Positions 16,151-23,176 of a DNA stretch of 64,000 nucleotides are shown one piece after another. The translations under genes and the position numbers were made by a program. This DNA is from Bacteroidota bacterium (GTDB lineage: Bacteria; Bacteroidota; Bacteroidia; NS11-12g; UBA9320): positions 1 through 64,000 of the forward strand of contig WGNA01000003.1 in the NCBI GenBank assembly GCA_016124755.1. The letters run 5' to 3'. The notes beneath the pieces are model-generated. The model was given only the letters and a program-made list of their open reading frames with translations, did not search any database and was not told where the DNA came from. Each line of letters starts with the position of its first letter. Position 1 is the first letter of the stretch.

Positions 16151-16969
16151 TTTTATCATCCGCCGTGCTCCTACGCTGTGCACCTTCGCTGAAGCTACTG
16201 CGTAAGAGAAAGCTACGGCGTAAGAGAAAGCCGATAGGCGACGGCGGATCGATTTTCGCATTTTCAATTTTGGCTTTTCGTTTTTAGATGCCACGTTCGT
16301 ACATCGTACCTCTAAAATCGTACTTGTGTTTAACCGCAAAGTCACGCAATTTTTTTTGCAGAGTAACGCAGATTTTTATACGATATCCATATTCTGATTT
16401 TTATCCCAATCAAATTGTCCGTAGCGAGGACGCAACGGACAGGCTCCGGTTGTGGCTTTGGAGGTATCGATTTTCATCCGCCTTTCGGCGGATTCGTTTT
16501 TCGTTTTTCCTAGCTCCATTCGTAAATCGTACCTCTGAAATCGTACTTTTATTTAACCGCAAAGTCACGCAAAGTTTTTTCGCAGATTAACGCTGTTTTT
16601 TTTTGAGCCATTCGTACGCGCATATAGGAAATTGTTTCGAAGTCGGTAGTGGGGACGCTACCGACAGATTCGATTTTTTTTACCGCAAATTCACGCAAAG
16701 TTTATCGCAGAGGAACGCAGTTTTTTTTTGAACCATTCGTAAGCTCATTTAGAAAATTGTTTCGAAGTCGGTAGCGGGGACGCTACCGACAGATTCGTTG
16801 TTTGTTTTACCGCAAAGTCACGCAAAGTTTTTTCGCAGAGGAACGCAGTTTTTTTGAGCCATTCGTACGCGCATTTAGGAGATTGTTTCGAAGTCGGTAG
16901 AGGGGATGCTAACGACAGATTCGATTTTTATACTGCATCGACCTCCGCAAAGTGATTTCAGTATTTTAC
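16151..16969. repeat. Repeat cluster A: tandem hairpin-bearing repeats
   Basis: Non-coding. At 16158-16249 arms ATCCGCCGT and ACGGCGGAT flank CTTCGCTGAAGCTAC-type sequence. From about 16290 a mosaic unit starts, with an initial copy of about 223 bp followed by copies of about 125 bp. Each unit has ACCGCAAAGTCACGCAAAG, then TTTTTCGCAGAGGAACGCAG, an ATTCGTAAGCTCAT spacer, and a 24-nt hairpin. Hairpins lie at 16417-16440, 16642-16665, 16767-16790 and 16893-16916. A second small hairpin (ATCCGCC-TTTC-GGCGGAT) is at 16476-16493. The same unit reappears after the next gene. Confidence 0.85.
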
Positions 16970-16977
16970 TATCTTTG
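16970..16977 (+). promoter_or_regulatory. Candidate -7 promoter box of the T9SS cargo gene at 16982
   Basis: TATCTTTG matches TAnnTTTG and ends 4 bp before the ATG at 16982, predicting an essentially leaderless transcript. No clear -33 element. Confidence 0.5.
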
Positions 16978-16981
16978 GTTT

Positions 16982-18487
16982 ATGAACCTTCACCAAACGT
17001 TGAAATCCAGTTTACTTTTTTTGATTGTCATTAGTTTTATCTCAAATGTTCGTGCGCAGAGTTGGGTTCAGGTGGGAGAAGATCTCACCACAAACCGGGG
17101 CATAAATGGGTTTGGTGGTGAAATACATTTAACGCCTGATGGCCGCTTTTTAAGCATGAATTGTAATAAAGCGTATGTGATGGGAATTATCAGACATCCC
17201 GGAATCGATCCTGAATCTCATATTTATGAATTAAAAGATGGTGTTTGGAAAGCAATCTGGAACGGCGATTCTATTCAAACCAATTACGGCCTTACCATTT
17301 CTAATGATGGTCTGACAATGGCTTATATAACTTTAGAACAGGATCTTCAACAGACAAATCGTGAAGCTATTCATTTCGTAATTCATGTTTTAAAAAGAAT
17401 AAATGAAAAATGGATACCGGTTGGGGAGCCCATTTTTAGTTTAAAGGAGACGTCCTATGCTAATTCGCCTGATAATGTAAGTCTGGCAATGGATGCCGAA
17501 GGAAATTCTTTGGCTATTGGATTTATATATGCTTGGGAAAATATGGACTCGTCGATTATTAATAGCGGCTCGGTTGAAGTGTATTCCTGGCAAGAAAATA
17601 AATGGATCAGAAATGGTCAAGCATTGCAAGGTCGGGATTCTTTTTTCATTGGCTCGTATGTTAATATGAGTGCAGATGGAAACAGAATCGCAGTTAGAGC
17701 TACTCATTTTTCTGGAAATGGTGGATATGTTGAGGTTTACCAGAAAAGTGGAGATAAATGGTTTCTTTTGGGGCAGCCTATTAACATCGGATACCATTTT
17801 TGGAACGGACAATCCTCCTTTTCTCTCAGTCAGGATGGAAAGAAAATAGCCGTCGGAGGTCTTCACTCGACTCCGGAACTTTTAGACTTGTCTTCCTTTG
17901 CAGTACATCAATTGCGTGACTCAACCTGGCAACCGGAAGATCATATTTTCACTGCTGCCGAAGATGTTAAACTGGGGGAACATATTCAGTTGAGTGGTAA
18001 TGGAAATACCTTGGTTTGTTCATATTACGAAGGTGGTATTCCCCATTTAAAAGTACTCCGGTTGTCTGGAAATAAATGGTATGAAAGCATTTCTACCGGA
18101 CTTAACTGCGGAACCGCCATTCAGGATTTAAGTATTAGTTATTCCGGTGATACGATTTCCGTTGGAATAGTTGAAAAAAGTGCAAATAAGCAATTGGAAA
18201 TTGTGAGAATTTATGCGTGGGACGAACACTCTTCCATTCGAAAAACGGAACCGATTAAGTGTTCGGTTTTTCCAAATCCGGCCAGTGATGCGATCACCAT
18301 TGTTTCGAATGAATTCATAAAAAATCCGGTAGTGGAAATTATGAATTCAACCGGTCAGGTGATCGTATTTGAAAATTTGAATTCCGGCACCTCGTTCTCT
18401 TTACCACTAAATCTAAATCCCGGATTGTATTATGTGCGGTTAAATTCAGATGTGATTTCGCAATGGACTTCGTTGGTGGTTAGATAA
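16982..18487 (+). CDS. Secreted propeller-like protein with T9SS type A sorting domain
   Basis: Secreted protein of 501 residues. The ATG at 16982 starts a clear signal peptide ending VRAQ; an in-frame ATG at 16952 lies upstream of the -7 box. The body (about 30-410) shows repeated blades of the form LSxDGxxIAVG followed by VEVYxxxGDKW (for example LSQDGKKIAVGG, MSADGNRIAVRA, LSGNGNTLVCSY), typical of a WD40/kelch-like beta-propeller. The C-terminal 75 residues start CSVFPNPASDAITIVS and end QWTSLVVR, a type A T9SS sorting domain. The gene is flanked on both sides by copies of the same hairpin repeat. Function unknown. Confidence 0.8.
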   Translation: MNLHQTLKSSLLFLIVISFISNVRAQSWVQVGEDLTTNRGINGFGGEIHLTPDGRFLSMNCNKAYVMGIIRHPGIDPESHIYELKDGVWKAIWNGDSIQTNYGLTISNDGLTMAYITLEQDLQQTNREAIHFVIHVLKRINEKWIPVGEPIFSLKETSYANSPDNVSLAMDAEGNSLAIGFIYAWENMDSSIINSGSVEVYSWQENKWIRNGQALQGRDSFFIGSYVNMSADGNRIAVRATHFSGNGGYVEVYQKSGDKWFLLGQPINIGYHFWNGQSSFSLSQDGKKIAVGGLHSTPELLDLSSFAVHQLRDSTWQPEDHIFTAAEDVKLGEHIQLSGNGNTLVCSYYEGGIPHLKVLRLSGNKWYESISTGLNCGTAIQDLSISYSGDTISVGIVEKSANKQLEIVRIYAWDEHSSIRKTEPIKCSVFPNPASDAITIVSNEFIKNPVVEIMNSTGQVIVFENLNSGTSFSLPLNLNPGLYYVRLNSDVISQWTSLVVR

Positions 18488-18519
18488 TATTTCCGTATAC
18501 AAAATTGAAGTCTTGGTTT

Positions 18520-18890
18520 TTATTCGATTTGGAGTTTACCTCGAAATCGGTAGCGGGGACGATGCCGACAGATTTGATGTTTGTTTTACCGCAAAGTCAC
18601 GCAAAGTTTTTTCGCAGATTAACGCAGTTTTTTTTGAGCCATTCGTAAGCTCATGTTGGAAATTGTTTCGATGCCGGTAGCGGGGACGCTATCGACAGAT
18701 TCCATTTTTGTTTTAACCACAAAGACACGCAAGGTTTTTTCGCAGTGGAACGCAGTTTTTTTTTGAACCATTCGTAAGCTCATTTAGAAAATTGTTTCGA
18801 AGTCGGTAGCGGGGACGCTACCGACAGATTCCATTTTTGTTTTAACCACAAAGACACGCAAGGTTTTTTCGCAGTGGAACGCTGATGCAC
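18520..18890. repeat. Repeat cluster B: three further copies of the hairpin repeat
   Basis: Three tandem copies of the unit found in cluster A, with a period of 127-129 bp. Hairpins are at 18546-18569, 18673-18696 and 18802-18825. The last is identical in sequence to that at 16767-16790. Each is followed by ACCGCAAAG or ACCACAAAG, then CACGCAA and a TTTTTTCGCAG stretch. Same orientation as cluster A, so the gene at 16982-18487 is bracketed by direct repeats. Confidence 0.85.
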
Positions 18891-22614: not shown

Positions 22615-23176
22615 GTTTACCCGTTATATCGGGAATTGATCAAAGGTCAATAGAATTTGAGAATTGGGGAAATGATTGATGAGAGAATTTGTGAAAAGCG
22701 AAAAGTGAAAAGCGATCCGCCTTCGCTGAAGCTTCGGTAGTTTTAATGCAGGAGATACATGATTAATGAAATTGCGGTCCGCCTTCGCTAAAGCTACGGC
22801 GGACGAGGAAATTGCGTGACTTTGCGGTTAAAACTAAAAGTAAAAATTGAGGTACATAATTGGCGGACGGTCCGCCTTCGCTGAAGCTTTCTCTTACGCC
22901 GTAGCTTCAGCGAAGGAGCACGGCGGACGAGGCTTAACGATTGAAGCGGTTATATTGGGCGATGTGCGCGGCCTGGCGGCAACGTTGAAAAACAGCGACT
23001 GAAAGAAGCTCGTTTTATAGCGATTGTCTGCCCCGCAAACACGACCAATATTTGAGCGGAAAGCGTGTTAAAAGCCAAAAATAAAATTCGAAGATGGTAG
23101 ATTTACGGAGTACGATCGAAGTTAATACCGATACCAATTAATGTATAAATTGAATGTACAAAAGGTTTTTCCCGAA
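22615..23176. repeat. Repeat cluster C: cruciform-forming intergenic sequence
   Basis: No gene seen. At 22777-22804 GTCCGCC and GGCGGAC pair around TTCGCTAAAGCTAC. At 22870-22928 a larger structure has the same outer arms plus a perfect 14-bp inner inverted repeat (22875-22888 with 22903-22916). At 22811-22832 is an exact reverse complement of 16329-16350, part of the ACCGCAAAGTCACGCAA unit of cluster A. The stretch 22940-23170 shows nothing recognisable. Confidence 0.75.

Follow-up and report, generated by a model that had tools for sequence, protein, structure and literature searches.

A 26-nucleotide hairpin in a Bacteroidota genome, probably a new atypical REP family dispersed by a RAYT

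The window considered here covers 64,000 nt of contig C4; the genome has 4.05 Mb and is placed in the Bacteroidota by its relatives and its type IX sorting tails. An earlier note, made from the letters of this DNA, reported at least seven hairpins within a repeat of about 125 bp, with copies on both sides of the gene that begins at 16982. All seven were found at the claimed positions, where shuffled sequences lead one to expect 0. The gene encodes a Por_Secre_tail protein and is a bystander; hairpins indeed lie on both of its sides, and the two arrays are direct repeats of each other. The features are as follows.

16417..16442, + strand: REP-like hairpin and AG, C subfamily, one mismatch (42.8 bits, covariance model)
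16642..16667, + strand: REP-like hairpin and AG, G subfamily, one wobble (41.7 bits, covariance model)
16767..16792, + strand: REP-like hairpin and AG, G subfamily, perfect (46.1 bits, covariance model)
16893..16918, + strand: REP-like hairpin and AG, decayed copy (34.5 bits, covariance model)
18546..18571, + strand: REP-like hairpin and AG, decayed copy (34.4 bits, covariance model)
18673..18698, + strand: REP-like hairpin and AG, decayed copy (37.4 bits, covariance model)
18802..18827, + strand: REP-like hairpin and AG, G subfamily, perfect (46.1 bits, covariance model)
16597..16973, + strand: left tandem array of 125-126-bp composite units (hairpin, CGCAAAG module and ATTCGTA.GC module; repeat families D1 and D2)
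16982..18487, + strand: protein gene between both arrays, with a type IX secretion sorting tail (Por_Secre_tail)
18541..18890, + strand: right tandem array of 127-129-bp composite units, a direct repeat of the left array (repeat families D1 and D2)
22809..22832, - strand: inverted CGCAAAG module copy without hairpin (inverted repeat I5)

The stems are perfect in hairpins 16767 and 18802, and the wobble noted earlier in hairpin 16642 is a T-G at pair 9. Hairpin 16417 reads GTCCGTAGCG-AGGA-CGCAACGGAC, with a coupled C-G change at pair 4 and an A-A mismatch at pair 7. This change in both arms is real, but it is not a local compensation, because C-G at pair 4 marks one of two subfamilies found throughout the genome. 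Hairpins 16893, 18546, and 18673 carry one-armed disruptions.

Start-to-start distances between hairpins are 125, 126, 127, and 129, and 225 from 16417 to 16642. The spacing that suggested a 125-bp repeat therefore exists, but the conserved unit is just 26 nt (the 24-nt hairpin plus AG), and most hairpin copies in other parts of the genome do not share the remainder of the longer unit. In the 125-bp repeat, the hairpin and an unrelated CGCAAAG module are repeated locally in tandem. The periodicity is secondary, an intergenic piece with a REP and this module having apparently been tandemly duplicated on both sides of one gene. Likewise, the inverted piece downstream, previously taken as part of the same unit, exists as 24 nt at 22809-22832 identical to 16329-16352, but it belongs to the CGCAAAG module and not to the hairpin.

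Long intergenic regions of this genome are composed of several short modules, including CGCAAAG. The latter spans about 40 nt with an inner period of about 10 nt, is intergenic, and occurs both with and without the hairpin (window positions 16331-16351, 16554-16574, 16807-16827, and 18586-18606; also L038 and L047); it was absent from the viral contigs searched. Modules GTTACTGTTACC, AATGAAAAG, and TTCGTAAATCGTAC behave like it. Short-repeat blocks at 16168-16352 and 22809-22931 of the window are mutually inverted and form the ends of a stretch of about 6.5 kb with two long genes. Long palindromes centered on GTAAGGCATGCCTTAC or a near variant were also observed (L001:1215-1282, and similarly in L012 and L051), with arms of up to 34 bp whose outer parts vary between copies.

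The element itself consists of a 10-bp stem (GTCSGTAGCG), an RGGA loop, and a terminal AG. A pattern search followed by a covariance model found about 80 copies on 19 contigs of the genome, a lower bound because hairpins lie near several contig ends. All 66 of the 66 copies scored lie outside predicted genes, in either orientation, where genes were predicted with a simple script. Among 37 independent flanks the edges are sharp: the first position after the hairpin is A in 36 and the second is G in 37, strong conservation ends there, and the 5′ side is without conservation and just AT-rich. The loop is GGGA in 38 and AGGA in 27 of 70 copies from this genome, and stem pair 4 is C-G in 31 and G-C in 32, which defines the two subfamilies. 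Almost no variation is seen in the inner TAG/CTA pairs or in the AG end. In size and copy number the hairpin thus resembles REP elements, which are palindromes of 20-40 bp with many intergenic copies. It lacks the GT[AG]G foot of classical REPs, since the base is AG/CT and GTAG occurs only within the stem. No empty sites were encountered in the sampled DNA of this genome, the viral contigs searched do not have the hairpin, and its core is printed nowhere in the literature searched.

The earlier note took covariation in the stem as a sign of selection on structure, and larger alignments support this. For 40 distinct sequences from two genomes, both-side changes occur at 5 of 10 stem pairs, compared with 2.2 in shuffles (a value reached in 5 of 500), and the covariation score is 0.184, compared with 0.086 in shuffles (reached in 0 of 500). 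This excess is suggestive and not proof because the shuffles ignore the relatedness of copies. Most of the signal comes from pair 4, at which G-C and C-G occur with similar frequency. When hand-picked variants from other genomes, chosen partly via the structure model, are added, both-side changes extend to 7 of 10 pairs, with compensated changes at pairs 1, 2, 3, 5, and 10 contributed by those genomes. The expectation that compensatory changes would outnumber single-arm ones held only in part: covariation is statistically significant, but once pair 4 is set aside the 70 copies of this genome contain 44 cells with single-arm changes and 5 with compensated ones. Such an excess of single-arm damage fits copies that decayed neutrally after arising from a source under selection as a hairpin, and is what dead copies of a mobile element should show.

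Significant covariation is also what a structured RNA or mRNA element would produce, be it a terminator, a stabilizer, or a small RNA selected copy by copy. The GGGA loop of the G subfamily is of the GNRA type, and 23 of the 59 copies with both neighbors known lie between convergent genes, as might suit such a function. Of the others, 10 lie between divergent genes, and among those between co-directional genes 8 point the same way as the genes and 18 the opposite way. Copies therefore show no preference for the coding strand, and RNA made from the sense strand is unsupported. There is no U-run, and the four terminator-like sites in the region do not include any of the seven hairpins. Rfam 15 gave no match in the window at gathering score, the whole unit has weak z-scores against shuffles (-0.7 to -2.4), and many copies have one-armed breaks. 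We consider an RNA role, which the earlier note had entertained, to be unlikely; the hairpin most likely represents a small mobile DNA element, not an RNA switch. This reading rests on the approximately 80 intergenic copies and on a variant that flanks a RAYT (REP-associated tyrosine transposase) gene in a related genome, as described below. It also implies that an RNA-like covariation signal can arise from a mobile DNA hairpin with two subfamilies.

The near invariance of the inner pairs and AG end would likewise be compatible with recognition by a host DNA-binding protein, its sites having multiplied through ordinary duplication of the kind that carries copies locally in the tandem arrays. 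This seems very improbable. Stem pairs 1-5 and 10 change where pairing is kept, unlike what recognition of a double strand would require, and the same sharp edges recur in 37 unrelated flanks. Moreover, 38 relatives from the same family and order, a set without a same-genus genome, do not have the hairpin.

The arrangement of copies relative to each other fits a mobile element. Close inverted neighbors stand 66-84 bp apart, five with AG outward and one with AG inward. Both subfamilies are joined in four of the five AG-out pairs, compared with one of 29 direct neighbors (Fisher p 0.0005). Given this difference, the doublets do not derive from simple inverted duplication, and they have the appearance of composed units like those of REPINs and BIMEs (PMC3116915). 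By contrast, 28 of the 29 direct neighbors belong to one subfamily, so direct arrays, including the 125-bp ones of the window, look like local tandem duplications. Doublets of fixed spacing and orientation comprise only a minority of copies; there are just five outward doublets, and the majority of hairpins are singlets or members of direct arrays. Heterodimers are known to outnumber homodimers in most REP families (PMC3733652). It is conceivable, though rather unlikely, that the RAYT of this genome, unlinked to any hairpin copy, sustains an active REP population in trans, and that both stem subfamilies persist because each doublet requires one of either kind, under a compatibility rule at the covarying pair 4.

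The distribution of the hairpin beyond its own genome is narrow. In a phylum sample of 395 genomes, a pattern allowing at most one mismatch located it in its own genome only, and the 394 others were without it. A stricter pattern applied to 84,980 species found it in one Lentimicrobiaceae metagenome-assembled genome (MAG). There, 17 copies have good scores, and the variant GTGCG...CGCAC adds another compensated change. When 395 genomes of the class were searched with the covariance model, the matches were G695 and G712, which belong to one family, plus weaker ones. Dispersed copies in G695, a MAG that is 67% complete, form a graded series up to ATCCGTAGCG-TGGA-CGCTACGGAT-AG (41.2 bits). It is in this genome that a RAYT gene is flanked by the same hairpin, and the encoded protein matches NF047646 at 85.3 bits (cut-off 80 bits). 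The copies beside it, and the RAYT of the window's own genome, are located as follows.

L166:1501-1526, - strand: G695 hairpin copy directly upstream of the RAYT, AG outward
L166:2200-2225 and 2256-2281, + strand: G695 hairpin copies directly downstream of the RAYT, AG outward
G000:C29:166464-167012: RAYT L033 of the window's genome (NF047646, 98.9 bits)

The window's genome has three Y1 transposase genes, namely two IS200-like genes (L031 and L032) and the RAYT L033, so the proposal that a REP-type transposase resides elsewhere in the genome is supported, and in the relative such a gene is flanked by a hairpin variant. L033 carries the HUH, W, and Y motifs expected of a RAYT (NHLH, W125, and YLHNNP) and is 54% identical to the flanked RAYT of G695. 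A profile of RAYT proteins matches the solved Escherichia coli TnpA-REP structure 4er8 (E 0.0007). Membership of L033 and L166 in subclass 2.6 was judged by the motifs and phylum that PMC6006769 describes, not by the models of that study. The three Y1 genes have no hairpin copy within 1.5 kb, so that L033 is not flanked by the hairpin in its own genome. A repeated structure around L033 (TCCGTYGTCGCC...GCAGACGACRGA) was found only at L033 in the sampled DNA.

Hairpins are common beside RAYT genes of this group. Among 30 RAYT loci, some of which are related and thus not fully independent, a stem of 9 bp or more lies within 400 bp in 19, for a total of 38 hairpins (0.25 expected in shuffles), and 16 of the 38 have an RGA loop. 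At L087:1272-1847, in the Lentimicrobiaceae MAG, about 18 tandem hairpins with a period of 32-33 stand directly upstream of a RAYT. Their unit is GGCACGCGTC-TGAA-GACRCGCGCC-AG, whose stem differs from that of the window whereas the plan is the same (10-bp stem, TGAA loop, AG). Inverted hairpin copies were also seen on the opposite side of this gene. None of the copies of the window's family in this MAG lies beside its RAYT, which has a different hairpin. In a RAYT tree, the G695 protein groups with moderate support with others that have different flanking hairpins, and not with L033. The hairpins of its neighbors are GTGCGAGACC-GGA-GGTCTCGCAC-AGC, or a form with an AGA loop in L138. As a separate observation, hairpins in the RAYT flanks L133, L127, L128, L136, and L137 share an A-C mismatch at stem pair 4 (e.g., GGCAC...GCGCC); in the window's family, this is the dimorphic pair.

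A different HUH enzyme encoded in the genome could also mobilize a REP-like element; candidates include the IS200-like Y1 proteins L031 and L032. Proteins of this type occur both here and in the Lentimicrobiaceae MAG, a G712 copy lies about 0.85 kb from an IS200-like Y1 gene, and L085, which is flanked by another family of inverted hairpins, has a copy of the window's family about 0.5 kb away. However, no such gene is bracketed by the window's hairpin, the sole bracketed gene seen is a RAYT, and L032 appears to be without its catalytic tyrosine. Judging from its residues, L032 (L032:1462-1944) is probably inactive, having HIGDQ where relatives have the catalytic Y (YxxxQ). We regard this route as about as doubtful as an RNA role. 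The L085 locus is of interest in its own right (L085:930-2120, contig C11 of the Lentimicrobiaceae MAG): a subclass 1.2-like Y1 gene is bracketed by several inverted copies of the hairpin GGACTCCCGCCAGGGAGTCC in a layout that is REPtron-like, and subclass 1.2 is described as generally without such structures.

A REP element dispersed by a Bacteroidota-type RAYT (subclass 2.6, Bertels group 5) is in our judgment the likely best explanation, and the hairpin probably stands for a REP family that is new and belongs to the atypical Bacteroidota type. The observed basis is the 26-nt unit, its approximately 80 intergenic copies, the AG-out doublets, the covarying stems, and the G695 RAYT bracketed by copies. 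The hairpin would be a non-autonomous palindromic repeat whose folded form is single-stranded DNA, and the RAYT, a tyrosine (HUH/Y1) enzyme, would act on this fold to cut, join, and copy the hairpin to new intergenic sites. TnpA-REP proteins cleave and rejoin REP sequences (PMC6006769). Because no copy lies beside the RAYT in the window's genome, we can only infer the cognate enzyme there; L033, or a lost relative of it, would have moved the window's copies. Bacteroidota REPs have been poorly described, and here one clearly bounded family comes with a copy number, a doublet geometry, and a RAYT bracketed in a relative. A general architecture for the REPs of this RAYT group is suggested: a stem of 9-10 bp, a short loop that is often RGA, and, in several, an AG end.

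Among known systems, CGTC-tagged REPs (PMC3733652) offer one likeness, in that the other strand of the window's hairpin starts with TGTC and the loop has 4 nt. CGTC repeats occur in Bacteroidetes, and have a stem of 8-9 bp with AT at its base, a CCA tail, and no dedicated transposase (PMC3733652). In contrast, the window's hairpin has neither AT at the stem base nor a CCA tail, its stem beside TGTC starts S-G and its far end is GAC, and its relatives bracket a RAYT.

With the REPINs and BIMEs of Pseudomonas and Escherichia (PMC3116915, PMC2817692) the family shares intergenic placement, inverted doublets about 70-110 bp apart, mixed-subfamily doublets, compensatory changes, and a transposase flanked by copies. 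It differs from them in having an AG end instead of a GTAG/GTGG head, in that doublets are a minority, and in its count of about 80 copies.

Subclass 2.6 (Bertels group 5) TnpA-REP genes of Bacteroidetes are flanked by atypical hairpins that have copies elsewhere in the genome and are described as being without a GT[AG]G foot (PMC6006769). Those hairpins are described there as weaker structures identified by manual inspection, whereas the window's family has a strong 10-bp stem, an NGGA loop, and an AG end; also unlike them, the hairpin in the window's genome is not beside its RAYT. The two have in common the type of gene flanked, the phylum, the missing GT[AG]G foot, and the dispersal of copies.
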